Assembly: GCA_001871075.1 (NCBI GenBank)
Contig: MNUP01000130.1
Location: 1 to 32,636 of the forward strand
Direction: 5' to 3'
DNA length: 32,636 nucleotides
DNA from: Candidatus Desantisbacteria bacterium CG1_02_49_89
GTDB lineage: Bacteria > Desantisbacteria > UBA1551
Shown one piece after another: positions 11,479-23,789 of this stretch. The first letter of the stretch is position 1, and every line of letters begins with the position of its first letter. The translations under genes and the position numbers were made by a program. Below the pieces are notes generated by a model that was not told the origin of the DNA, did no database searches, and saw only the letters and a list, made by a program, of their open reading frames with translations.

Positions 11479-11503
11479 AATTAAGTATTGTGTCCCCGGA
11501 ATT
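11479..11503 (+). repeat. ORF6N cassette boundary repeat, copy 1
   Basis: The 25-nt unit has the core GTATTGTGTCCCCGGAATT preceded by AATTAA. Identical or nearly identical copies at 12058, 13988 and 14606 lie in the same orientation and bracket the ORF6N genes. Confidence 0.85.
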
Positions 11504-11537
11504 CCATAACCACGCGATTACACGAGGAGTCTTAAAA

Positions 11538-12053
11538 ATGAGAGCGATCGTCCCGCAGGAAGTCCTCGAACAAAAGATTTTTCTAATTCGCAGCCAGAAG
11601 GTCATATTAAGTACCCATCTTGCTGATCTTTATGGGGTTGAGGCAAGGGAATTGATCCAGGCAGTTAAGCGCAACATCGAAAGATTTCCCGGTGATTTTA
11701 TGTTTCAATTGACAAATGATGAATTTAAAAACTTGAAATCACAAATTGTGATTTCAAGTTGGGGCGGTATGCGGCGCGCCAGACCTTACGCCTTTACTGA
11801 AGAAGGGATAGCTATGCTGTCCAGTGTTCTGCGGAGCAAGAGAGCCGTGCAGGTCAATATTGCCATTATGCGCACCTTCGTAAAGCTTAGAAACATTCTT
11901 TTAGCTCATAAAGAACTTGCTCATAAATTAAAAGAGCTTGAAAGAAAATTCGAAAAGCACGATGAAGAAATAATAGCAATCTTTAATGCGATCCGCCAGA
12001 TGATGGCGCCGCCGGAAAAAGTAAAACCGCGGATCGGCTTTAAGCCATACTGA
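11538..12053 (+). CDS. ORF6N domain DNA-binding protein, cassette copy 1
   Basis: ORF6N is a DNA-binding domain related to KilA-N and common in phage and mobile elements. Here the 171-residue protein has the usual layout: VPQEVLEQKIFLIRSQKV at the start, DLYGVEARELIQAVKRN (helix-turn-helix-like), FMFQLT, PYAFTEEGIAMLSSVL and a C-terminal coiled coil. I choose ATG 11538 over the in-frame ATG at 11490 because it has GAGGAG nine bases upstream and aligns with the start of the sister gene at 14073. The stop lies only 4 bases before the right boundary repeat. A 31-nt palindrome sits inside the gene at 11730-11760. Function is unknown; a transcriptional regulator of a mobile cassette is the most likely reading. 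Confidence 0.85.
   Translation: MRAIVPQEVLEQKIFLIRSQKVILSTHLADLYGVEARELIQAVKRNIERFPGDFMFQLTNDEFKNLKSQIVISSWGGMRRARPYAFTEEGIAMLSSVLRSKRAVQVNIAIMRTFVKLRNILLAHKELAHKLKELERKFEKHDEEIIAIFNAIRQMMAPPEKVKPRIGFKPY
11730..11760. promoter_or_regulatory. 31-nt perfect-arm palindrome inside ORF6N copy 1
   Basis: The left arm AACTTGAAATCACAA and right arm TTGTGATTTCAAGTT pair at all 15 positions around a single A at 11745. That base is the first base of codon 70. The sister gene has a different palindrome centred on exactly the same codon base. It could be an operator for the encoded protein or a recombination or RNA hairpin site; the function is inferred. Confidence 0.7.
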
Positions 12054-12243: not shown

Positions 12244-12354
12244 CTAACAAAAGAAGAATTTTTGAGGTGCTAAATTATCACCTCAAACTTGAAGTGCCAT
12301 TTTGACACATCAAGCAGAGGGGGAAGAAGGTATTTACCCTATGTTTTTACAGAA
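12244..12354 (+). pseudogene. ORF6N remnant A (internal fragment)
   Basis: The reading frame LTKEEFLRC-stop-IITSNLKCHFDTSS, then RGGRRYLPYVFTE, matches residues ~58-90 of the ORF6N genes. A TAA at 12271-12273 interrupts it where remnant B has CAA. The N- and C-terminal parts of the gene are missing. Its bases 12259-12314 match 13807-13862 at 54 of 56 positions. It carries two adjacent palindromes, 12261-12287 and about 12286-12314. The next gene starts 22 bases later. Confidence 0.8.
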
Positions 12355-12376
12355 ATAAAATAATCAGAGAGAAAAA

Positions 12377-13723
12377 ATGAAATTTAAGGAAAATGAAACT
12401 ATAGAGCTTAAAAAATCAACTTCAGAATTGAAAGAAGCAATCATTTCCATCAGCTCTATTCTGAACAAACATGGCAAAGGCACAGTCTATTTTGGCATTG
12501 AGGATGATGGTAAAGTTGTTGGACAGCAGATAGGCAAATCAACAGTTAAAGATATTTCTAAATGGATAACCGATCACATTGACCCTAAAATCTACCCTGA
12601 TATTAAAGTTCAGAAAATAGTCGGCAAAGATTGCATTGTTATTAATTTCAACGGACATGAAAATTTGTATTCAGCCTTTGGACGTTTTTATTTAAGAGCC
12701 GGGGATGAGAATAAAAAGCTTTCTACGAAAGAAGTTGAACGGCTTATTGCAAAAAAGCAGAACTATATTTATTCATGGGGTTTTCAAGTTTCAGAAATAC
12801 CAGTTTCTGTTGTCGATGTCCCAGCAATACGGGCATTTATTAAAAAAGGCCGGGAAGCAGGACGAATTAGCTGTGCATTTGATACGGCAAGGAATGTCTT
12901 GAACAAGTTAAACCTTGTAAAAGGCAATAAATTGCTCAATGCCGGAAAGGTTTTATTTTGTAAGAATAACAGTCTTGAAGTAAGGGCAGCAATTTTTGCC
13001 ACTAACGAAAAAACAACTTTTTTGGATATCCAACTGTTTAAAGGAACACTTTTTGATTTAATCAATCAATGCGAAGCATATATTAAAGAACATATAAACT
13101 GGAGTGCGGAGATAGTTGGATTTAAGCGGGTAGAAACTCCGGAAGTTCCGGTTAATGCTGTGCGGGAAGCCATTGTAAATTCCTTATGCCACCGCGATTT
13201 TGATAATCTTGGCGGGAATGAAATTGCTATTTATAAAAATAGAATAGAAATCTACAATCCCGGGCAATTTCCATATGATTATTCCCCTGATGATTTTATC
13301 CGGGGCAAAGAAAAAAGTCTTCCCAGAAATCCTCTGATTGCAGATACTTTTTATCTAACAAAGGATATCGAGAAGTGGGGTTCCGGATTAAAAAGAATCA
13401 GTGATGAATGTAGGGTTTCCGGCGTGAAGGTAGAGTTCAATAAGATTAAAAGTGGATTCGTGGTGATATTTTATCGCCCGCAAATCGAAAAGGGCATAGA
13501 AAAAGTCGGAGATGAGGGTGTAAATGAGGGTGTAAATGAGGGTGTAAAATTTCCATTGGAATACATTAGAAAAAATCCTGGCAAGAGAGCACCTTATATT
13601 GCAGGAATGCTTAAAGTCCCATTAAAAACACTTGAGCGCTGGTTGAAAAAACTGAAAGCAAAAGGAAAAATAAAATACGAAGGAAGCTCAAAGACCGGTG
13701 GATATTACGTTGTTGGTCAGTAG
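12377..13723 (+). CDS. AlbA_2/Schlafen-type putative transcriptional regulator with a RecG-like ATP-binding C-terminal region
   Basis: The N-terminal ~130 residues are an AlbA_2 (divergent AAA_4, Schlafen-like) domain: ENETIELKKS, then SSILNKHGKGTVYFGIEDDG and FYLRAGDENKKLS. A central linker leads to the HATPase-like C-terminal region common to this family, with AVREAIVNSLCHRDF near residue 264, IEIYNPGQFP and KWGSGLKRI. A winged helix-turn-helix ends the protein. Three in-frame 12-nt repeats (13514-13549) encode EGVNEGVNEGV just before it, as often seen in the family. Such proteins are usually annotated as regulators or helicase-like proteins; their function is poorly known. The gene sits between two decayed ORF6N fragments that carry the same 56-nt sequence. 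It is AT-rich compared with the housekeeping genes. Confidence 0.85.
   Translation: MKFKENETIELKKSTSELKEAIISISSILNKHGKGTVYFGIEDDGKVVGQQIGKSTVKDISKWITDHIDPKIYPDIKVQKIVGKDCIVINFNGHENLYSAFGRFYLRAGDENKKLSTKEVERLIAKKQNYIYSWGFQVSEIPVSVVDVPAIRAFIKKGREAGRISCAFDTARNVLNKLNLVKGNKLLNAGKVLFCKNNSLEVRAAIFATNEKTTFLDIQLFKGTLFDLINQCEAYIKEHINWSAEIVGFKRVETPEVPVNAVREAIVNSLCHRDFDNLGGNEIAIYKNRIEIYNPGQFPYDYSPDDFIRGKEKSLPRNPLIADTFYLTKDIEKWGSGLKRISDECRVSGVKVEFNKIKSGFVVIFYRPQIEKGIEKVGDEGVNEGVNEGVKFPLEYIRKNPGKRAPYIAGMLKVPLKTLERWLKKLKAKGKIKYEGSSKTGGYYVVGQ
13514..13549 (+). repeat. Three 12-nt tandem repeats in the AlbA_2 gene
   Basis: GAGGGTGTAAAT occurs three times in a row with one mismatch at the end and encodes EGVN units. 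Gain or loss of a unit would keep the frame and change only linker length. Confidence 0.85.
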
Positions 13724-13800
13724 ATAGGAAAATGGGCGCTGTCCCTACTTTCAATAAAACGTATCGGTCCCGACAAGGGCGGCCATTGGGAAGTGGTCGA

Positions 13801-13982
13801 AAAATCTTTTTGAGGTGCCAAATTGTCACCTCAAACTTGAAGTGCCATTTTGACACATCAAGTTGGGGTGGAACCCGTAAACTACCCTATACTTTTACCG
13901 AGAAAGGCGCGGCCATGCTTTCCGTCAACTTATGGCGCCACCGGAAAAAGTAAAACCGCGGATCGGCTTTAAACCATGCTGA
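13801..13982 (+). pseudogene. ORF6N remnant B (5' truncated, internal deletion)
   Basis: Codons for FLRCQIVTSNLKCHFDTSSW, then GGTRKLPYTFTEKGAAMLS, match the middle of ORF6N. The sequence then jumps, with a frame change, to the C-terminal codons [19 protein letters not shown] and stop at 13980-13982. Compared with the intact copy at 14073, about 184 bases are missing between the AMLS and RQLMA codons. The N-terminal third is absent. Upstream bases 13724-13800 show no recognisable gene. Two tandem palindromes lie at 13809-13835 and 13834-13864. Confidence 0.85.
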
Positions 13983-13987
13983 AAAAT

Positions 13988-14017: not shown

Positions 14018-14059
14018 AAACAACCCTTTTGTTGTTTAGGTCGCAATTTGCGACCTTAA
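14018..14059. promoter_or_regulatory. Two hairpins upstream of ORF6N copy 2
   Basis: AAACAAC/GTTGTTT (14018-14037) is followed by a 25-nt palindrome at 14035-14059 with inner arms AGGTCGCAA and TTGCGACCT around a single T. The CAA-N-TTG centre is shared with three of the palindromes found inside ORF6N genes. Its place 14-38 bases before the ATG suits an operator; this is inferred. Confidence 0.5.
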
Positions 14060-14072
14060 ACAAGTCTTAAAA

Positions 14073-14600
14073 ATGAAAGCGATCGTCCCGCAAGAAGTTA
14101 TTGAGCAAAAGATTTTTTTAATCCACCGGCAAAAGATAATGTTAGATAAGGACCTGGCAGAGCTATATGGGGTAACCACGGGCAACCTAAATAAAGCGGT
14201 AAAAAGGAATGTTGAAAGATTCCCGGAAGATTTTATGTTCCAGTTAACTAAGAATGAGGAGAATTCTTTAAGATTCCAATTTGGAAGCTTAAAAAGAGGT
14301 CGGCATGCCAAGTATCTGCCTTATGCCTTTACAGAACAAGGTGTAGCCATGCTTTCGTCTGTGCTGAAAAGTAAGAGAGCCGTACAAGTCAACATTGCTA
14401 TTATGCGGGCCTTTGTAAAACTTAGAAACATCCTTTCCACCCATAAAGAACTTGCCTGCAAATTAAAGGAGCTTGAAAGAAAAACAGGAAAACATCTAAA
14501 AAAACACGATGTCGAAATCCAAGCAATTTTTGATGCAATCCGTCAACTTATGGCGCTGCCGGAAAAAGTGAAACCGCGGATTGGCTTTAAGCCATGCTGA
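14073..14600 (+). CDS. ORF6N domain DNA-binding protein, cassette copy 2
   Basis: This 175-residue protein is the sister of the one at 11538, with the same order of motifs: [66 protein letters not shown], a coiled coil and the [11 protein letters not shown] tail. The two proteins diverge most at residues 60-80, where each gene carries its own palindrome. The AAGTCTTAAAAATG start context is shared with the sister gene. No strong Shine-Dalgarno sequence is present; the upstream hairpins may control expression. The stop lies 8 bases before boundary repeat copy 4. Confidence 0.85.
14267..14293. promoter_or_regulatory. 27-nt palindrome inside ORF6N copy 2
   Basis: The arms TTTAAGATTCCAA and TTGGAAGCTTAAA pair at 12 of 13 positions around T14280, which is the first base of codon 70. 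The sequence is unrelated to the palindrome of copy 1, but position and size agree. Confidence 0.7.
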
Positions 14601-14746: not shown

Positions 14747-16147
14747 ATGGCAGCAATTAAAAATTTTGATAAAAAAATTGGTGAGCTAAAACTACAATAC
14801 GGGAAAATTAACTGTCCGATAGTGTTTAATTTCCGTACTTTTTGTTCTTCTTGGGAATGGACTAAAAGGTCGGATGTGCTCACTCATCATATTCATAAGT
14901 ATCCCGCAAAACTCATTCCCTATATTCCAATATTCTTTTTGTCTTCCCAGATGTGTGCTAAGGATGATGAAGTAATGGATCCTTTTACTGGTAGTGGAAC
15001 CGTTCTTTTAGAATCCATAACTCATCCTTACTTTAAAAGAAATTGCTTTGGAATTGAAATTAATCCTTTAGCTCGGTTAATCGCAAAAGTCAAAACCACT
15101 CCTTTAGATCTCAAAAAATTACAAGATAAGGAAGAAGAATTATTCTTAAATTTGAAAAGAAAAGATATAAATCCAATTATCCCAGAATATGACAATCTTG
15201 ATTTGTGGTTTTCTGAGAATGCACAAAAAAAATTAGGTAAGCTAAGAGCATGTATTGAAGAACTTAAGGATGATGATTACAAAGATTTCTTTTTTGTATG
15301 TTTCTCCTCACTTATAAGAAAAGTATCATTAGCCGATCCTAATATTCCACCTCCGGTTGTTTTGAAACCGGACAAGTATAAGAAAGGTTCCTCTAGGTAT
15401 GATGAGATGAAGGATTTTCTAAAAAGAAACAGAATTCCTAATGTAAAAGCGTTATTCAAGCAATGCGTGAAGGATAATGAGAGGCGAGTTAAAAGCCTTT
15501 CTAATATAGAAGATGTTTCTAATGGCGTGGCAAAAGCAAGAATTGTTTGGGATGATTCGCGAGATCCTAAGATTGGAAGACTTGTAGCCAAAGGAAATAT
15601 TGAAAAAAAAGGCGCAAAGGTATTTAAAGAAAACAGTATAGGATTAATAATAACATCACCACCATACATCACTGCTCAGAAATATGTTAGAACGACAAAA
15701 TTGGAATTGCTTTGGCTAGGTTTGGTTGATTCAAAGTCCCTTATCGAGTTAGATAAGGAGACAATTGGAACTGAGAAAGTTAAGGTTGACGACAATCTTG
15801 TGAGAACAAACATAAAAATAATAGATAATTTATGTAATAAAATTGTAGATATTTCAAGAGAAAGAGCAATTATGGTTAATAGATATTTCAACGATATGAT
15901 TCTTGTAATAAGGAATTCCTACAAGATGCTTAAGAAAGATGGGAGAATGATCCTCATTGTGGGAAATAACAAAGTGTGTGGTTATAATGTGAAGACCTAT
16001 GGTATGCTGGCTGAAATAGGCGAGAGCATAGGATTCAGAAAAGAGATGGTAATAAAAGACAGGATTAGAAGCAGGGGGATGATTACAAAACGGCACAAAA
16101 AAGGTGGCTTAATCGAAGATGAGTATATTGTTGTACTTCAGAAATAG
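14747..16147 (+). CDS. N4-cytosine/N6-adenine DNA methyltransferase of the four-gene module
   Basis: This 466-residue enzyme is expected to transfer a methyl group from SAM to an exocyclic amine in DNA. HHIHKYPAKLIPYIP lies near residues 44-58. Motif I DPFTGSGT is at residues 78-85 and motif IV SPPY is at 304-307. That order (X-I-IV) differs from the Mod-type beta class at 19234 and has a long insert between motifs I and IV that probably holds the target-recognition part. The next gene starts 8 bases after the stop with its own AGGAG, and the following three genes are joined by 4-nt overlaps, so this heads one operon. The AT-rich composition differs from the housekeeping genes and suggests transfer. 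The likely role is to mark self DNA. Confidence 0.9.
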   Translation: MAAIKNFDKKIGELKLQYGKINCPIVFNFRTFCSSWEWTKRSDVLTHHIHKYPAKLIPYIPIFFLSSQMCAKDDEVMDPFTGSGTVLLESITHPYFKRNCFGIEINPLARLIAKVKTTPLDLKKLQDKEEELFLNLKRKDINPIIPEYDNLDLWFSENAQKKLGKLRACIEELKDDDYKDFFFVCFSSLIRKVSLADPNIPPPVVLKPDKYKKGSSRYDEMKDFLKRNRIPNVKALFKQCVKDNERRVKSLSNIEDVSNGVAKARIVWDDSRDPKIGRLVAKGNIEKKGAKVFKENSIGLIITSPPYITAQKYVRTTKLELLWLGLVDSKSLIELDKETIGTEKVKVDDNLVRTNIKIIDNLCNKIVDISRERAIMVNRYFNDMILVIRNSYKMLKKDGRMILIVGNNKVCGYNVKTYGMLAEIGESIGFRKEMVIKDRIRSRGMITKRHKKGGLIEDEYIVVLQK

Positions 16148-16155
16148 GAGAAAAA

Positions 16156-17139
16156 ATGTTACAGATAATCCCTAAAATTAGTTTATTGAACGCTGAGAAA
16201 GAGTTCGAAAAGGTAATTAGTGGCATAGAATTAAGAGGTTACATAAACAAGCCACCTGTAAGCGTTACGGGAGGCATTCAATGGGACTTGGCAGAAGAGA
16301 AAATCAAATCTCTATCGATCGATGATATTACAAATATTTTTTGTCCTTCGAGAAGAGACATATATATGAAGCGAGTTTTGAAGATTAAAGGTAGTAAAAA
16401 TTGGGGAAGAGTAACAGGCCAACTTGTTGAATCCTGCATGTTCGGCTTTGCCGATAAATATAAAGACAATATCTCAATCAATAGGGTTAGAACATATGAA
16501 AGCTTATCGAAGAAAGCCAATCTTTTCATGGCAGATTTCTCTAAGAAAAACAAAAAAGAGGTCGCTGAGCTAACTAAATTCAAAAATAGTCCAGGGGAAG
16601 ATGAGGATTTGTTGCTACGTCAGTTAAATTATGCTTTGCGGTACGAACTAATCATGCTTCGAGCTACCCGAAAGCTGTCAGGAAATAAATCTGGCAGTGA
16701 GGTAATCCCACATATGAAAATAGAACCAAACACAAAAATATTAGGCATAAGCTCACCCTCCACACCTGATTTTGTTATTCCTGGCCTTTCTGCTATAGGC
16801 GATATCAAAACAGGTTTCGAATTTAAGGATTATTACCGCTTAGCGGCTGCTGGCTATGCATTAGCTTACGAAAATCAGAAGGGTGTAGGTAATGATATTA
16901 ATTTGGGACTCATATATTATTTCCCAACGAGAAAAAAAGATATATCTTTTGCGCATTTGTACATATTTGTAATTGATGACACTTTGAGACAGGAATTTCT
17001 AGATATGCGAGACAAGGCTTTGCTCGTTATGAAAGAGGCTTTTTCCGTTTCCAAGACCGTTCCTGCTTTAGCCGAGTTGGACAAGCATTGTATTTATTGT
17101 AAATATAGGAGCGAGTGCGATAAGTCGAGAAGAAAATGA
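16156..17139 (+). CDS. Cas4-like PD-(D/E)XK nuclease with predicted iron-sulphur cluster
   Basis: The 327-residue protein has the layout of RecB/Cas4-family nucleases. One cysteine lies early (C63 in IFCPSRRDIYMKR) and three at the extreme C-terminus (C312, C315 and C321 in HCIYCKYRSEC), the arrangement that holds a 4Fe-4S cluster in Cas4 and AddB-type enzymes. The nuclease motif is D205 in TPDFVIP followed by D216-x-K218 in GDIKTG, with YRLAAAGYALAYEN as the QxxxY-like helix. It is longer than typical Cas4 (about 200 residues), and no CRISPR or cas genes are nearby. AGGAG precedes the ATG, and the stop overlaps the next start (ATGA). It is probably the effector or DNA-processing part of the module. 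Confidence 0.8.
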   Translation: MLQIIPKISLLNAEKEFEKVISGIELRGYINKPPVSVTGGIQWDLAEEKIKSLSIDDITNIFCPSRRDIYMKRVLKIKGSKNWGRVTGQLVESCMFGFADKYKDNISINRVRTYESLSKKANLFMADFSKKNKKEVAELTKFKNSPGEDEDLLLRQLNYALRYELIMLRATRKLSGNKSGSEVIPHMKIEPNTKILGISSPSTPDFVIPGLSAIGDIKTGFEFKDYYRLAAAGYALAYENQKGVGNDINLGLIYYFPTRKKDISFAHLYIFVIDDTLRQEFLDMRDKALLVMKEAFSVSKTVPALAELDKHCIYCKYRSECDKSRRK

Positions 17140-17990
17140 AGAAAAAAATCATACCTTTAATTAAAGAATATAGAATCCAAAAACTGTTTAAAGTATTGGT
17201 TTGCTTTGAGAAGTATCCATTTAACAGAGATGGTCTTAGGGAGTGCATACTCCAATTGTATAAAAGTAAAGAAGAAAAAAGTATATTTAGAGGAATGGTT
17301 ATTCCTTCTTTAAGACACCTGGGTCTTATTCTCGGGTACGATGAAGATTTAAGATTAAGCGCAAATGGTAATCTTATAGTAATTGCAAGAAAAAAGTCAG
17401 AAGAAGAGGGATTGAGAGTTTTTAGGGCAGTGTTAACTGAAATCGACGACCTAGATATAAAAATTCTAAAGATGACCATAAAGAGGAATATAGATTTTGA
17501 CAACCTTAAGTATAGCCTAATAAAGAAAATAGAGGCTCCTTCTGAAAAGCAAGCGAGAGAACGAATTAACCACTGGGTTTCTATGCTACTAGAGGCGGGG
17601 TTGTTGGTGAAGGAAAATGAAAAAAGAAGTATTGCGAAAGGATTGTTATCTCAAGTAGAAAAAGATTTGGATGTTAGTACCAAAAAAGAAAAGTTTGAGA
17701 AGGTATTTTTTGAGGTTTATGAGTCAATATTTAAAAAACAGGAAAACATACCTATAATTGATATACCAGATATCCGAACAGGGGTGACAGCAGCATTTTA
17801 TACAAGGCATAATTTAATTGTTACGGAGAAGCAGTTTGACGGACTTTTGCGGGGAATTAAATTTGCAGCTGACGATTACATAATATCACTCGGTAGAGCA
17901 ATGGGTGCTGAGGAGAAATTGTTCAAACACGAAAATAATTATTATAGAACGATTTCAATAAGATTTTTAAATAAGGAGGTAAAAATATGA
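17136..17990 (+). CDS. Unknown 284-residue protein of the four-gene module, possible winged-helix adaptor
   Basis: I do not recognise this family. The protein is highly charged and mostly helical. Two regions (about residues 20-90, with DGLRECILQLYK and RHLGLILGYDEDLRLS; and about 125-165, with QARERINHWVSMLLEAGLL) look like winged-helix folds, and the C-terminal ~70 residues form another alpha/beta segment. It has no visible catalytic motif, signal peptide or membrane segment. Overlaps of four bases with the nuclease gene before it and the ATPase gene after it mean it is very likely co-translated with both. A DNA-binding or bridging subunit is the best guess. Confidence 0.75.
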   Translation: MKKKIIPLIKEYRIQKLFKVLVCFEKYPFNRDGLRECILQLYKSKEEKSIFRGMVIPSLRHLGLILGYDEDLRLSANGNLIVIARKKSEEEGLRVFRAVLTEIDDLDIKILKMTIKRNIDFDNLKYSLIKKIEAPSEKQARERINHWVSMLLEAGLLVKENEKRSIAKGLLSQVEKDLDVSTKKEKFEKVFFEVYESIFKKQENIPIIDIPDIRTGVTAAFYTRHNLIVTEKQFDGLLRGIKFAADDYIISLGRAMGAEEKLFKHENNYYRTISIRFLNKEVKI

Positions 17991-19099
17991 AGTCCTTTAT
18001 GGAGTCAGAATATAAATTGAAAGTGGACCCTTTTGATAATAAAGTTGACCTTTCTGCCCCAATGGCTGGTCGTAAAAAGGAAAAAGAAGCGTGGAGTCAG
18101 ATCATTAGGCAGAGAACCGGGCAAAGAGGAAACTCTTTTAATTTTGTTATAGGTGATTATGGGTTCGGAAAATCTTTCTCGCTATATAAAATTTACGAAG
18201 AAGTGAAAAAAAAATATGAGAATGTAATACCGATTTTTATCACCTTACTTCCAGAAGATACTATCAGAAAATTTGGTTTAGAGTTTATACAGAGGATATT
18301 CAGCAAATTTGAGATGAAAGATTTTAAAAGAATTTTATCAAAAGTTAGAAAAGAAGATTTCGACCATCTTAAGAGTTTGTTACCTGAACCAGCCATCATT
18401 TTTGAAAAAGTAAGGAAAGGAAATGATCTCGCTTTTGTTTTTTTAAGAGGTGACAAGGTCATTGATGCCAAAGAGATGCATGCTTTAGGGGTAGGAAGGA
18501 AATTAGATTCAACAGACAGAGCCAAGGACTATTTGCTTAGTTTTTTGTATCTTTTAAAGAAGGCTGGGTTGGATAGTTTGCTTCTTGCGATTGATGAGGT
18601 TGAATATATCTTTAGCCAAATGAGAGGTTCAAAAATTTCTTTGGCCTTCAATACCTTAAGAGGAATTCACGATTTGCAGTCATTAGAACTTGGAGAAACC
18701 GCAAACATGATATTTTTCTTCGGCATCTCAATAGATGGATGGAGACGTTTGACTGTTGATCTCCAAAAAAGAGAAAAAAGCCAAGGTGGCCCGATACAGC
18801 CTTTTATAGATAGGAAAGATAATGTTATTACTCTGGAGCCATTGAGTAAAGAGGAAACGAAAGAGCTTATTAAGTTGAGATTAAAGCAGAACAGGACTAC
18901 CGGAATAGTAGGCGAAAAGCCGCTAATTCCTTTTAATGATGAATTTGTTGGCTATGTGTTTGATTTAACCAAAGGTAGACCTCGTGACATAGTCCGAAGG
19001 TGTGATATTGTTTTATTGGAAGGGTTAGAGCAAAAGATTACATTGATAACGGTAACTTTTGCAAAGAAAGTTTATGAGTCGCATGGACTTTTTATCTAA
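17987..19099 (+). CDS. P-loop ATPase of the four-gene module (ORC/Cdc6- or BrxC/D-like)
   Basis: This 370-residue protein has Walker A GDYGFGKS (residues 56-63), Walker B LLLAIDEVEYIF with D203/E204, a likely sensor segment MIFFFGISIDGW and a C-terminal region with TKGRPRDIVRR, as in AAA+ ATPases of the ORC/Cdc6 type. The GDYGFGKS and DEVE motifs also fit the BREX ATP-binding proteins BrxC/BrxD, but the protein is short and no other BREX genes are present. A perfect AAGGAGGT ribosome binding site lies before the ATG, which overlaps the previous stop. It probably senses or moves along DNA for the nuclease. It is the last gene of the operon; no clear terminator follows. Confidence 0.85.
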   Translation: MKSFMESEYKLKVDPFDNKVDLSAPMAGRKKEKEAWSQIIRQRTGQRGNSFNFVIGDYGFGKSFSLYKIYEEVKKKYENVIPIFITLLPEDTIRKFGLEFIQRIFSKFEMKDFKRILSKVRKEDFDHLKSLLPEPAIIFEKVRKGNDLAFVFLRGDKVIDAKEMHALGVGRKLDSTDRAKDYLLSFLYLLKKAGLDSLLLAIDEVEYIFSQMRGSKISLAFNTLRGIHDLQSLELGETANMIFFFGISIDGWRRLTVDLQKREKSQGGPIQPFIDRKDNVITLEPLSKEETKELIKLRLKQNRTTGIVGEKPLIPFNDEFVGYVFDLTKGRPRDIVRRCDIVLLEGLEQKITLITVTFAKKVYESHGLFI

Positions 19100-19145
19100 A
19101 CGAAATAATCCTTCCAAAATTCTCAACAGAAAAATTAGTAAGCGC

Positions 19146-19159
19146 ATATAAAATTATAT
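19146..19159. promoter_or_regulatory. Small palindrome upstream of mod, possible operator
   Basis: ATATAA-AA-TTATAT lies in the 134-base AT-rich gap between the ATPase gene and mod. A TTGAAA at 19186-19191 could be a -35 box, but no well-spaced -10 box follows, so a promoter is not certain. Confidence 0.25.
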
Positions 19160-19233
19160 TCCGCTTATGCTCGATATAAAAATACTTGAAATATGGTTAT
19201 TACATATTGTATGAATGAATATGAAGGAAACCC

Positions 19234-19692
19234 ATGAAAAAGAAAAAAGATCACGAAGAAGACGAAAGGTCAAAAACGACCCAAAATATTGAAGAACTGG
19301 CGCAACTTGCAAAAGAAAGCCAGGAACAAAAGCTGCCTGAGCAGAAGGTTGTTTTTAAAGCAGATTCTATAAAAGCTCGTGCGGGAAGACGAGGAGTCCA
19401 TAATTTACCAGACCAAACTAATCCCCCGATGGGTTTTGACCCGGAAAAAGCCTTTGACAATATATTTCCCTTTATTAAGCTTCCTTATCTTCAACCCAAT
19501 ACGCCGGAGGATATTATAAGTTTTGGTTCACCGGATGTGGGTGGGTTTTTAGATACAAAGAATAAGAGAATTCCGCTCAATGCTATCTTTTTTGGCGATA
19601 ATTTGCATATTTTAAGAGCATTACCCTCAAATTGCATAGACCTTATTTATATTGATCCGCCATTTTTCTCCGGTAGAAACTATAATTACTGA
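19234..19692 (+). CDS. mod: Type III-like DNA methyltransferase Mod, N-terminal fragment (gene broken by a MITE)
   Basis: The 152-residue fragment contains a charged N-terminal region and the first methyltransferase motif, DLIYIDPPFFSGRNYN, with DPPF at residues 141-144. This is motif IV of beta-class N6-adenine methyltransferases of type III systems. The frame then ends because the TGA at 19690 is supplied by the left end of an inserted MITE. The rest of the gene continues at 19827. AAGGAAA precedes the ATG. Without motif I and the recognition domain this fragment cannot methylate DNA alone. Confidence 0.85.
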   Translation: MKKKKDHEEDERSKTTQNIEELAQLAKESQEQKLPEQKVVFKADSIKARAGRRGVHNLPDQTNPPMGFDPEKAFDNIFPFIKLPYLQPNTPEDIISFGSPDVGGFLDTKNKRIPLNAIFFGDNLHILRALPSNCIDLIYIDPPFFSGRNYNY

Positions 19693-19825
19693 GAATCGCA
19701 TAATACCTTGACAGTTGTCTTTGCGAGCGATAGCGAAGCAATCTCGTTTTTAACGACGGGATTGCCACAGGCTTCGCCTTCGCAATGACATCAAAAAACG
19801 TCAACCAATTAAGCGAATATCAATA
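19687..19825. mobile_element. MITE copy 1, inserted in mod
   Basis: The 139-base element is flanked by TA on both sides (19687-19688 and 19824-19825). Its ends TGAGAATCGCATAATACC... and ...TTAAGCGAATATCA are imperfect inverted repeats: 17 of the first 23 bases pair. The middle is a TTGCGAGC...GCAATGACA palindrome. A second copy with the same ends lies at 23791-24007. It carries no gene, so it would need a transposase in trans; TA targets are typical of Tc1/IS630-type enzymes. Confidence 0.85.
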
Positions 19826-19892
19826 GATATGGGGAGATGATAACGAAGTTAGAACTTTCCACGACATTTGGGAAGACGGTCTGCCAAGTTAT

Positions 19893-21332
19893 TTGGTTTG
19901 GCTGAATGCCCGATTATGGGAAATGCGCAGAGTTTTAAAAGATATAGGTTCAATATATATCCATTGTGATTGGCACGCCAGCCATTATATTAAATGCGAA
20001 ATGGATAAGATATTTGGGTATGATAATTTTCAAAATGAATTTATATGGTATTATGGTGGAGGTGGAGCATCAAAAGAAAGATGGGGTAGAAAACATGACG
20101 TAATTTTATTTTACACAAAAGGTAAAGAGTGGACATTTAATATTGATGCAGTGAGAATACCCCATAAATGGACTGATGGACAAAAAAGAGCTGATGGAAG
20201 CAAAAGGGATTATGATAAAGGGAAGATACCCGATGATGTGTTTATTCATCACTCCGTAATGCCCTGGGGTGGTGAGAAAATTGGCTATCCTACTCAAAAG
20301 CCAGAAGAATTATTGGAGCAAATAATTAAGGCATCATCTAACAAAGGCGATTTCGTTGCTGATTTCTTCATGGGTGGTGGAACAACTTGTGCTGTTGCCC
20401 AAGAGCTTAATCGTAAATTTATAGGTTGTGATATTTCAAGAGTAGCCTCTTCAGTTACCCTCAATCGTTTAATAAGAGACGCAGAGCAGATTTCGGGAAG
20501 AACTGCTTCGATAAATATTGATAAAAAAGATAAACCGCTCAGCTTAGAACTTACTATAAAAGAAATCCCTGACATCAGGGTTTATTATATGGGTGTATAT
20601 CCAATTGAAAAGTTTGAGTTTATCGGGCAGAAAGAATTTGAAGACTTTATTCTAACTTCTTATGAATCAAGAAGATTCACCGGAGAGGGTGAAATTACAG
20701 GAGTAATGAATGCCGCTACTTCCGTACTAATCGGTTCAGTCAAACCAAATGAGTCTATACCTGAAGCAAGATTGAAAAAATTCGTAGAGGACATTCTGAA
20801 ATTACGTTATCAGGAAAACATCAGGATGAAGTTGAAAGTAATTGCCTGGGTATTTCCTCCATCATTACAAAGATATGCAAAAGTCTTAGAAAATTATTTC
20901 TTTAAGAAAAATTTGGCGGTTGAGATAGAACTGATTCCCATAAACAGCCAGTTATTCAGAAAAAGGATATTGGAACATTATCAGGATACGTCTAAAAGCG
21001 AATTTTTACTCAAATTTATTTCGCAACCTTCAATTATGGATATTGTCTATAAGAAAGTCAGCGGGCTTAAATACAAATTTGAGGCAGTCGGGGCAAGGAG
21101 CAACAATATAGACGGATACCTCATAAATTGTCAGTGGGATTTCAATTTTGCAGGTGGTAAATTCGGTGAAAGTGAATTCGCCCTTATGCGGGAACAAAAA
21201 GACGGCAAGTATGTGGCAATTCTGAAGGCAGAAAAAGAATTTGAAAAGTTGGGCAGATATATCGTTGCCTGCCGTGTGCAGGACAATCTTGGCGGTGAAA
21301 CGATAAAGACAAAAGGAGTGGAGATTAAATAA
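19893..21332 (+). CDS. mod: Type III-like DNA methyltransferase Mod, C-terminal fragment
   Basis: Mod-like sequence resumes at 19827 with IWGDDNEVR, then FHDIWEDGL. The first usable start in this frame is a TTG at 19893, without a ribosome binding site. The fragment holds GSIYIHCDWHASHYIK, a recognition-domain region, WGGEKIGYPTQKPEELL and motif I (DFFMGGGTTCAVAQE). The order IV-then-I matches the beta class. The last ~250 residues are the usual Mod C-terminal domain. It is expected to be inactive because motif IV is on the other side of the MITE. It ends two bases before the res start. Confidence 0.85.
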   Translation: MVWLNARLWEMRRVLKDIGSIYIHCDWHASHYIKCEMDKIFGYDNFQNEFIWYYGGGGASKERWGRKHDVILFYTKGKEWTFNIDAVRIPHKWTDGQKRADGSKRDYDKGKIPDDVFIHHSVMPWGGEKIGYPTQKPEELLEQIIKASSNKGDFVADFFMGGGTTCAVAQELNRKFIGCDISRVASSVTLNRLIRDAEQISGRTASINIDKKDKPLSLELTIKEIPDIRVYYMGVYPIEKFEFIGQKEFEDFILTSYESRRFTGEGEITGVMNAATSVLIGSVKPNESIPEARLKKFVEDILKLRYQENIRMKLKVIAWVFPPSLQRYAKVLENYFFKKNLAVEIELIPINSQLFRKRILEHYQDTSKSEFLLKFISQPSIMDIVYKKVSGLKYKFEAVGARSNNIDGYLINCQWDFNFAGGKFGESEFALMREQKDGKYVAILKAEKEFEKLGRYIVACRVQDNLGGETIKTKGVEIK

Positions 21333-21334
21333 TT

Positions 21335-21532
21335 ATGAAATACGCATTTAAAGAGCACGAAAAGAACTTCGCGGAATGGTGCAGACAGGGATATAATTTA
21401 CCTTTACCTGATGCCCAGAAACCTAAAGCCAGGGATTTTCTTAAGAATATAGACGATCCCAACTTTGTCCCTCCGTTATACCGCCATCAGGCGGAAGCCG
21501 TAAAGAGAATAATTTATTCTTATGAAGTTTAG
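21335..21532 (+). CDS. res: Type III-like restriction helicase Res, N-terminal fragment (frameshifted)
   Basis: These 65 residues end in PLYRHQAEAVKRIIYSYEV, the usual lead-in to the helicase Walker A motif of type III Res proteins. The frame stops at TAG 21530-21532. One extra T in the run at 21528-21530 would restore GAA GTT TTA GGC AAA AAG and join it to the next fragment. The gene starts two bases after mod, so mod and res form one operon. Confidence 0.8.
   Translation: MKYAFKEHEKNFAEWCRQGYNLPLPDAQKPKARDFLKNIDDPNFVPPLYRHQAEAVKRIIYSYEV
21528..21530 (+). other. Single-base frameshift site in res
   Basis: TTT here followed by AGG puts the stop TAG in frame. The downstream frame (TTA GGC AAA AAG GAT TTG) continues the protein as LGKKDLLVEVVTGGGKS. 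Loss of one T from a TTTT run explains it; a sequencing or assembly error is the alternative. Confidence 0.75.
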
Positions 21533-21543
21533 GCAAAAAGGAT

Positions 21544-23382
21544 TTGCTTGTGGAGGTAGTAACAGGCGGGGGCAAGTCTGCGATTATCGCCGGGATTATT
21601 GCTTATTTTATGATTGTTCACGATAAAAATAGATTTCTTGTTTTAGTGCCTAATACAATTGTCAGGGCAAGATTAAAAGATGAGTTTGACCCGGAAAGCA
21701 AAACCTTTGTTTATAACACCTTCCCTTTCTTCTATAACGGCACAACCGATTTAATTGAAAGGCTTACTTTGCATATGATGGAGCAGGGAAAGGCGCCTGA
21801 GGGTATAAGACAGGCAAGTATAATCCTGGGCAATATCCACCAGATTTATGAAGGCAAGGTAAGCCTTGAAATAATACAGAAAAATCTCGGCGACATTGTC
21901 ATATTTAACGACGAAGCCCACAATTCTAAGGCAGAGAATTACAACGAAGTCCTGAATAAACTTAAACCTCAGAGAATATTCCGGCTGGATACTACTGCAA
22001 CGCCGGATAGATTAGACGGGCTTCACCCTGACAGTGAAAAGATTTTAGAGTACGGCGTAAAGAGGGCGATGCAGGACAGGATAATCAAAAGGATCATAGT
22101 CTGCAAGCCTGATATCGAAAAGGTCAAGCTGACTTATAAAGACACGGAAACCGGCGAGGAGATTAAAGCCGAAGAAGTGCCCTGGGAAGAAATCGAGCAT
22201 AGAAAAATCAAGCCCACAAGGTTTATCACAAGTGAAAAACCTATGCGCCAGCAGATTGCTATTGCCAAACAGTGCCTTGATTACCAGAAGAAAGTGATTA
22301 CTCTGGACGATATAGGCAAGCCCAAGTGGAAGCCTCTGCTTTTTGTTGTTGCCATTTCAATAGCCGATGCTATGAATATCGCAAAGGTATTGGAGAATGA
22401 GTTCAAAATGAAGACCCTTTTGGTTACCAATGAAAGCGAAGAAGAACAAAAAGAAGAAGCAATGACTATCAACAGACATCTTAAAGACTGTGAGTGGGAC
22501 GCAATCGTATCAGTGCTTATGCTCCGCGAGGGCTGGGATGTCAAGAATATATCGGTCATCCTGCTTTTTAGGAAATTCTGTTACAAACTAAACGAATACA
22601 CAGGCGACAAATACTCTGTTTACGGACAGCAGGTTATCGGCAGGGGGCTGAGAAGAATTGACCCGCAGAATAAAGATGAGTGGGAGCAATGCCTTGTAGT
22701 TGACCACCCTATATTAAAACATGACTGGCTCTGGGAGATGTTGGATGCCGACCAATATGGCAGCCCTCTTAACCCGGATGAAATAATTGACGCCCAAAAA
22801 ATTCCAGAACCCAAGGAATTTGGGATTGAAACAGTTGACCATAAACCTGAAGATGTTAAAGATATTATCGGCAATATCCAGGATATTATAGACGGTATTC
22901 CCAATCCCCAAAAAGAAGAATTAAGGGTTATTCAAAAATGGCAGGAGTATCTGGATAATTATCAATATCAGATGGAACAAATAGACATTGACCAGACAAT
23001 CAGGGAAATCAAAAAAAGAAAGCTTGCCACGGGTTTCAACGAGCAGGAGGCCTTTGATGAATTTAAAATAGACGTCCAGCAGATAAATAAATTTACAGAT
23101 CGTAGCGTTGAAGAATTAAAAGAAATGATTTCCTCTGAGCTGGGTTTTATCTGCAGGGACAGTCTTAAAGAATATGACCGCAATCCGGACAAAAGACAGG
23201 ATATTATATATAAGATTCTGATTGACCATACAAAGAAAAGGTTTTTGCTGGGCAATGACCTGTTTACTATTGAAGATAAGGGCGCCTTAAAAAAATTGTG
23301 GTTTGTGATGATAGAAATTAGAGAAGTATTTTTAAACCCTTTATTAATAGAAGGGATACTTAAAAATCCATCTGAATTATGA
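21544..23382 (+). CDS. res: Type III-like restriction helicase Res, main fragment
   Basis: The SF2 helicase motifs appear in order: Walker A VVTGGGKSAII, DEAH box NDEAHNS, motif III-like DTTATP, motif V LREGWDVKNIS and motif VI QQVIGRGLRRIDP. A helical C-terminal region (QMEQIDIDQTIREIKKRK) follows. The TTG at 21544 is unlikely to be a real start, since the true N-terminus is in the frameshifted piece at 21335. In this family the helicase moves along DNA after Mod binds the target. The nuclease domain that usually ends Res is here a separate frame overlapping by 4 bases. Confidence 0.85.
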   Translation: MLVEVVTGGGKSAIIAGIIAYFMIVHDKNRFLVLVPNTIVRARLKDEFDPESKTFVYNTFPFFYNGTTDLIERLTLHMMEQGKAPEGIRQASIILGNIHQIYEGKVSLEIIQKNLGDIVIFNDEAHNSKAENYNEVLNKLKPQRIFRLDTTATPDRLDGLHPDSEKILEYGVKRAMQDRIIKRIIVCKPDIEKVKLTYKDTETGEEIKAEEVPWEEIEHRKIKPTRFITSEKPMRQQIAIAKQCLDYQKKVITLDDIGKPKWKPLLFVVAISIADAMNIAKVLENEFKMKTLLVTNESEEEQKEEAMTINRHLKDCEWDAIVSVLMLREGWDVKNISVILLFRKFCYKLNEYTGDKYSVYGQQVIGRGLRRIDPQNKDEWEQCLVVDHPILKHDWLWEMLDADQYGSPLNPDEIIDAQKIPEPKEFGIETVDHKPEDVKDIIGNIQDIIDGIPNPQKEELRVIQKWQEYLDNYQYQMEQIDIDQTIREIKKRKLATGFNEQEAFDEFKIDVQQINKFTDRSVEELKEMISSELGFICRDSLKEYDRNPDKRQDIIYKILIDHTKKRFLLGNDLFTIEDKGALKKLWFVMIEIREVFLNPLLIEGILKNPSEL

Positions 23383-23789
23383 GAGTCAACAGAGGAAAGC
23401 TAATCGGGTTAAGGCGCAGTCCGTACGGGGAAGAGGTCTATGATTCAGACCTGGAAAAATATTATATGGTGGAATTGGAAGGAATGCCCGGGATTAAAAG
23501 CTGGACTAAAAAACATAATATAAAGATTCCATACCAATTTTTATTTATAAAGAGACACTACATACCGGATTTCCTCGTGGAATTTAATGACGGCAGCAAA
23601 GAAATTCACGAAACAAAAGGGTTGCCCTTTTTGTTTTTATTATCAACTAAACTTAAAAAAGTATCAGCCGAAGAATATTGTAAAAAGTTAGGGTGGAAGT
23701 ATATATTTATAACCAAGGATAAAGAGGTTTTTTATAAGAATAATTTTCTTTCTAACGCTCTGGGCAGCATAAAAGATATAAAGGAATAA
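23379..23789 (+). CDS. PD-(D/E)XK (TnsA-like) endonuclease encoded after res
   Basis: This 136-residue protein contains YIPDFLVEFNDGSKEIHETKG, which fits the PD-x(n)-ExK nuclease core, and a C-terminal KLGWKYIFITKD strand-helix like the restriction nuclease domain at the end of type III Res proteins. Its ATG overlaps the res TGA (ATGA), which suggests coupled translation into a helicase-nuclease complex. A MITE begins two bases after its stop. Confidence 0.75.
   Translation: MRVNRGKLIGLRRSPYGEEVYDSDLEKYYMVELEGMPGIKSWTKKHNIKIPYQFLFIKRHYIPDFLVEFNDGSKEIHETKGLPFLFLLSTKLKKVSAEEYCKKLGWKYIFITKDKEVFYKNNFLSNALGSIKDIKE

Follow-up and report, generated by a model that had tools for sequence, protein, structure and literature searches.

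A palindrome within ORF6N regulator genes that changes in step with the encoded protein and probably serves as its operator

Genes for ORF6N-domain proteins carry a palindrome at one site of the domain's own coding sequence. Its two arms covary at the DNA level, and its bases follow, through repeated switches of specificity, the identity of amino acids in a predicted recognition helix that is encoded elsewhere in the gene. We consider it very probable that this palindrome is bound by the domain that the same gene encodes; its likeliest role is autoregulation. The window examined here is a 32,636-nucleotide stretch of DNA (contig MNUP01000130.1) from Candidatus Desantisbacteria bacterium CG1_02_49_89, which has two intact ORF6N genes and two decayed copies.

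The palindrome in the window and across ORF6N domains

The intact genes and the sites that accompany them are arranged as follows.

11538-12053, + strand: intact ORF6N gene 1 (Q41, R45 class; Pfam ORF6N E 2.1e-32)
11730-11760: perfect 31-bp palindrome within gene 1, axis 11745; its half-site has GTG at +3 to +5, the Q41 class
14035-14059: intergenic ORF6N-type palindrome upstream of gene 2, axis 14047, class CG
14073-14600, + strand: intact ORF6N gene 2 (G37, K41, R45, K80; Pfam ORF6N E 1e-33)
14178-14207, + strand: predicted recognition helix, codons 36-45 of gene 2 (an AlphaFold helix at 36-45; the strongest coupling outside the palindrome is at residues 37, 38, 41, 42 and 45)
14267-14293: palindrome within gene 2, axis 14280; GA at +4+5 with K41, G at +7 with G37, T at +10 with K80

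Both genes exceed the gathering score of the Pfam profile for the ORF6N domain (PF10543), and their palindromes, with axes at 11745 and 14280, occupy equivalent positions in the domain. The ORF of gene 1 spans 11490-12053, and its ORF6N part has its first ATG at 11538. The predicted reader of the CG-class site at 14035-14059 is an E41 protein, such as one encoded at G000:C144. The window also contains a defense-type cluster (14747-23789) whose Pfam matches are a DNA methylase, a Csa1-like exonuclease, a BrxC/BrxD-like ATPase and a ResIII helicase, and which looks like a BREX-like or restriction-type defense island.

A survey of 145 genomes gave ORF6N genes in 38, almost all outside the family of the window, and these genes have the palindrome too; named genomes and viral contigs were added for a set of 202 distinct domains. 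At one site of the domain there is a palindrome with an odd axis and a length of about 27-31 bp. A palindrome score of at least 10 is reached by 81% of the 202 domains versus 0.5% of synonymous recodings, and a score of at least 12 by 53% versus 0.02%. Among the controls, a score of at least 9 is seen in 4.4% of neighboring ORFs and in 1 of 30 HTH_3 regulator genes. In 159 of 193 cases the axes share one alignment column (frame 0), and in 19 they are in the adjacent column (frame 1). A single type of palindrome occurs in two reading frames, where the encoded peptides differ (SQFAT-like versus AFCD- or TICD-like). Some single proteins (L043, L047 and L061; G093) have two ORF6N domains, one with a frame-0 palindrome and one with a frame-1 palindrome. 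ORF6N and RhuM genes with a palindrome inside the domain number in the hundreds and come from about 20 bacterial phyla and from viral contigs, and the named rows of the ORF6N tree set span 20 phyla.

The original prediction, drawn from a single paired base change in the decayed copies, was that the palindrome itself is under selection or templated correction, as an operator, a recombination site, an RNA hairpin or a product of quasipalindrome repair. When many ORF6N genes are aligned, as was suggested along with that prediction to check it, the paired columns do change together. Positions ±4 are Watson-Crick in 96% of cases versus 37% expected from the columns, and A-T, G-C and C-G pairs are all common. 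The observed and expected values are 93% versus 46% at ±5, 88% versus 44% at ±8, 99% versus 61% at ±10 and 88% versus 45% at ±13, all somewhat inflated because the axis was picked by best complementarity, and the recoding null covers the score rather than these per-column figures. Pairing weakens past ±15.

Helix residues and palindrome bases

Among 173 sequences sharing less than 75% identity, mutual information of half-site bases with protein columns, apart from those encoded by the palindrome itself, peaks at residues 41, 38, 42 and 37 for positions +4/+5, at residue 45 for +3, at residue 37 for +7, and at residues 78-81, in the putative wing, for +8 and +10. In both frames, residue 41 tracks the bases at +4+5 (162 of 164), as Q with TG (78 of 79), E with CG (32 of 32), K with GA (25 of 26) and R with GC (27 of 27). 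R45 occurs with G at +3 in 163 of 163 cases, and N45 or S45 with T or A in 10 of 10. K37 is accompanied by C at +7 in all 92 instances, and T at +10 by K80 in all 36. Glutamate is known to prefer C, lysine and arginine to prefer G, and glutamine to prefer A. Read from the alignment, the residue-to-base table is close to a lookup and fits these familiar preferences. It is obeyed by both intact proteins of the window, the first by Q41 with TG and the second by G37, K41 and K80 with G at +7, GA, and T at +10.

An AlphaFold model of the protein encoded at 14073 (pLDDT 75) has a helix at residues 36-45, a low-confidence loop that corresponds to the palindrome-encoded part, and a strand at residues 84-87. 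The fold match to winged-helix DNA binders is weak (VIA Z 6.9 for a Ski-like structure, 6.0 for Dachshund and 5.3 for RacA-DNA; best Foldseek E 0.16), and a search of the PDB by sequence found no relative.

For sequences left out of the fit, residues 38 and 41 predict the bases at +4+5 in 93% of cases, compared with 36% for the nearest relative, as judged by all other columns, and 46% for the majority class. On a tree from which the helix and palindrome columns were left out, we count at least 80 changes of class and at least 78 of residue 41. Supported branches give independent pairs in which residue 41 changes with the class in about 12 of 12 cases for TG/Q, 9 of 9 for CG/E, 7 of 7 for GA/K and 7 of 7 for GC/R, and never against it. 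Control residues show no co-change with the class on independent pairs of supported branches. By these comparisons the match between residues and bases is not due to kinship, and site and protein change together.

RhuM genes (86 sequences) carry a palindrome at a fixed site of their own, with ±3, ±4, ±6 and ±7 all 100% Watson-Crick and represented by two or more pair types. The amino acid that precedes the helix histidine goes with the bases at +3/+4, as E with CC (23 of 24), K with GG (16 of 16), R or K with TG (13 of 13) and Y with TC or TT (8 of 9), and the helix residues predict +3 to +5 in 87% of cases versus 48% for the nearest relative. In ORF6N and RhuM alike, the site is symmetric and matches the specificity residues of the gene's own protein, which is the pattern of an autogenous operator. 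The E. coli rhuM gene beside the selC tRNA has AACCATCCGGAAATTCCGGATAGTT together with NEH, the E class, and matches over at least 80% of this gene are present in 840 of 5426 complete E. coli genomes. Among Bro-N genes, phage genes included, 27% score at least 9 versus 0.3%, and residue-base coupling in this family was judged by eye. The E. coli dinD gene, a member of Bro-N, has no palindrome, and none is present in the 8 KilA-N genes examined. The in-gene palindrome is not universal among related regulators.

Proposed autoregulation and the explanations weighed against it

From these patterns we infer physical binding, dimerization and repression. An ORF6N protein would act as a homodimer, each of its two subunits reading one half-site. 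The recognition helix (residues 36-45 in the protein encoded at 14073) would read +3 to +7, with R45 at +3, residues 41 and 38 at +4/+5 and residue 37 at +7, and the wing (residues 78-81) would read +8 to +10. Because identical subunits would read both half-sites, a change in one arm would be matched in the other arm and in the protein. The site is located in codons of the helix-wing loop, about 200 nt into the gene, where many amino-acid sequences are tolerated. A protein that binds inside the gene encoding it, and at the promoter too in some genes, would hinder transcription, and in-gene binding could halt RNA polymerase in the manner of a roadblock. Since the operator would lie within the domain, any gene or fusion that receives the domain would receive the operator as well.

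ORF6N-type palindromes are also located shortly upstream of about two dozen of 199 ORF6N genes; promoter-proximal palindromes scoring at least 9 total 46 for these 199 genes, versus 1 in shuffles. They often belong to a specificity class other than that of the gene's own protein, and across the 199 genes the match to the protein's own class is not clearly above class frequencies. Because these sites are often of another class, the family may form a cross-regulating network rather than rely on simple self-repression. In the genome of the window, a YhcG/DUF1016 nuclease gene and a Bro-N gene are each preceded, at a distance of about 60-100 nt, by an ORF6N-type palindrome (L100 at G000:C94:13334 and L102 at G000:C111:19390). 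Both are possible trans targets of ORF6N proteins, and the position of these sites hints at cross-regulation.

The alternative that survives best accepts the same binding and gives it another purpose, such as copy control or exclusion of incoming alleles, tethering, or gene mobility. In its favor, ORF6N, RhuM and Bro-N genes are patchy in distribution and multicopy, remnants often terminate at or just after the palindrome, and the site is some 200 nt inside the gene, not at the promoter alone. However, in the window's ORF6N proteins Pfam reports neither a nuclease nor a recombinase domain, and the promoter sites favor transcription control. We regard another purpose as unlikely. Recombination sites of the attC-like kind were considered and rejected.

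The reading as an operator of the gene's own protein extends to two decayed ORF6N copies in the window, whose features are as follows.

12259-12353, + strand: decayed ORF6N copy A with two palindromes, an 83% direct repeat of copy B
12261-12287: copy A palindrome 1, axis 12274, with T-A at ±3 and a C·T mismatch at ±4
12288-12314: copy A palindrome 2, axis 12301, with mismatches at ±1, ±4 and ±8
13807-13985, + strand: decayed ORF6N copy B, in which the palindromes, the wing region and the C-terminal end are joined by deletion (Pfam E 2.6e-6; repeats D3, D4)
13809-13835: copy B palindrome 1, axis 13822, with C-G at ±3 and a C·T mismatch at ±4
13834-13864: copy B palindrome 2, axis 13849

Copy B scores 28.1 bits versus a Pfam ORF6N gathering cutoff of 27.8, and copy A was identified as an ORF6N remnant by its similarity to copy B and by the reading LTKEEFLRC*IITSNLKCHFDTSSRGGRRYLPYVFTE. 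The two copies are 83% alike across 95 nt, and their second palindromes (axes 12301 and 13849) have the mismatches at ±1, ±4 and ±8 in common. The half-sites of the dead copies, GGC and GTC, are of the R41-associated kind, and a relative from the same order (L038), whose peptide is identical to theirs, has R41. We infer that these palindromes are leftovers of an ORF6N operator.

Exactly between copies A and B is a gene (12377-13723) with Pfam matches to Schlafen/AlbA_2 and a RecG-type HATPase and with an internal GVNEGVNEGVK tandem repeat; it appears as if it had been inserted with duplication of the palindrome region. Tandem palindromes in the loop codons are present in L057 and L028 as well as in copies A and B (e.g. 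LRCQIVTSNLKCHFDTSS), and suggest that an operator can be doubled in frame. ORF6N remnants (L080, L089, L091, L094, L049 and L079, and the one at 13807 in the window) are often cut or deleted at or just past the palindrome, which suggests a fragile spot or a recombination-prone site. Two contig ends, G091:C30 and G091:C127 (L078 and L087), are both close to one and the same ORF6N palindrome, CATTGGAAGTCGCAATTTGCGACCTCCAATG, which looks like a break in the assembly.

The base change that prompted the operator reading is as originally described. The 56-nt stretches 12259-12314 and 13807-13862 differ solely at 12271/13819 (T/C) and 12277/13825 (A/G), both positions are the -3/+3 partners around axes A12274 and A13822, such that C-G is replaced by T-A, and the C/T difference turns CAA (Q) into the stop TAA at 12271-12273 in the ORF6N frame. 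Two random differences in 56 nt would be palindrome partners with a probability of 26/1540 = 0.017, with complementarity not yet demanded, and the paired change is one event that was chosen by eye. T-A at ±3 occurs in 0 of 169 in-frame (phase 0) ORF6N genes, an absence that is expected because T-A creates a stop. The change also places A at +3, versus the G of all 163 R45 proteins; it removes the R45-associated base and was therefore not kept for binding by an R45 protein. Selection on the palindrome itself, and with it the operator reading, is strongly supported by arm covariation and by bases that follow the recognition-helix residues across the family, but the event in copy A is poor evidence for it. 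That event may be a coincidence (P about 0.017), or it may reflect selection for a reader not among the proteins seen here.

Mutational templating, in which quasipalindrome template switching rewrites one arm from the other with no selection, would yield paired changes in dead copies too, such as the one in copy A. Nevertheless, the ±4 mismatch that adjoins the changed pair was left unrepaired in both copies, and templating can neither link bases to recognition-helix residues 30 codons away nor keep one site over about 20 phyla. As the main cause it is already contradicted by the residue-to-base code. Quasipalindrome repair is unneeded, is disfavored at the changed pair by the unrepaired mismatch, and is given very little credence by us.

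An mRNA hairpin that affects translation or RNA decay is comparably improbable. The arms could fold into a stem closed by a small A/U loop, but the mismatches have no consistent G·U preference. As a test of the G·U tolerance of an RNA hairpin, G·T is not in excess over A·C in the main ORF6N set (27 versus 45 in frame 0); in frame 1 (24 genes) the counts are 11 versus 2, with most of the 11 at one position, and the inner arms of RhuM have almost no G·T mismatches. A hairpin would also leave the residue-to-base code unexplained. The arms stay Watson-Crick with no G·T excess, and this is a feature of the DNA, not of the mRNA.

Just as hard to credit is the insertion of a mobile palindromic element (REP- or RPE-like) into ORF6N genes. 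The tandem palindromes of copies A and B, L057 and L028 and the intergenic copies speak for such an element, but the arms vary between genes without losing their pairing (58 distinct 9-nt versions among 181) and match the helix of their host. Near-identical dispersed copies were not observed, and the copy B palindrome is present in its genome only at the two places in the window. The palindromic elements of Rickettsia likewise reside within coding sequence and are near-identical mobile repeats; elements of this type were rejected because the ORF6N arms differ from one another and follow the host protein as they diverge. The exact sequence GGTCRCAAWTTGYGACC occurs in genomes that also have ORF6N, and there mostly within ORF6N, which again counts against a mobile element. 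In viral contigs, 78 of 80 exact copies are outside ORF6N, and some of these (e.g. in L296, L304 and L273) have an A-run before and a T-run after (AAAAAGAGGTCACAATTTGTGACCTCTTTTT) and are terminator-like. Because the viral copies are mostly outside ORF6N and are partly terminator-like hairpins, GGTCRCAAWTTGYGACC by sequence alone is not diagnostic.

The weakest explanation, that amino-acid constraint alone produces the palindromic look, draws on a peptide common in ORF6N (LRSQ[FI][AV]TS) and can practically be dismissed, given that the palindrome is lost in synonymous recodings and that a second frame, with another peptide, has the same palindrome and the same code.

Known systems and biological meaning

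Intragenic operators with a transcriptional roadblock are described for E. coli PurR at purB and for B. subtilis CcpA and CodY (PMC4132739). There, a DNA-bound regulator in the transcribed region hinders RNA polymerase, much as the roadblock step is proposed here, and the site serves a regulator encoded elsewhere. In ORF6N and RhuM, by contrast, the site is written into codons for the DNA-binding domain of the very regulator it would serve, and it covaries with that domain across two whole families. XRE and toxin-antitoxin regulators have autogenous promoter operators that are bound by dimeric repressors (PMC12565409, PMC9477884). The likeness would consist of a palindrome read by a homodimer and of autoregulation; however, those operators are in the promoter rather than in coding sequence and are not carried with the domain. 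For the most part, the protein families treated here are members of the domain-swapping network around Bro-N, with domain shuffling (PMC10111431), and the available portion of that account makes no mention of an in-gene operator or a residue-to-base code and does not list RhuM. The coding-sequence palindromes of ORF6N resemble those of Rickettsia in their location and differ from them in that the arms diverge together with the host protein.

A search of open PMC found no account of a palindrome inside ORF6N, RhuM or Bro-N genes. Operators of the autogenous and of the intragenic kind are both known; two families that encode and co-evolve with their own operator appear to be new, as far as this search extends.

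We think it quite likely that ORF6N, RhuM and part of Bro-N represent a general and unreported class of regulators. In this class, domain and operator would be one stretch of DNA in loop codons, moving by domain swapping and horizontal transfer, with about 80 joint specificity switches in ORF6N alone and a legible code. If this is true, the DNA targets of hundreds of uncharacterized regulators (RhuM, ORF6N and phage antirepressor-type proteins) could be read from the gene sequence without experiment. The roughly 80 switches would form a natural series for a dimeric DNA-binding domain, with interim states that can be tested, and covarying amino-acid pairs in these proteins would be explained at the DNA level. 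An operator inside the domain would also be the reason that such domains survive constant swapping.
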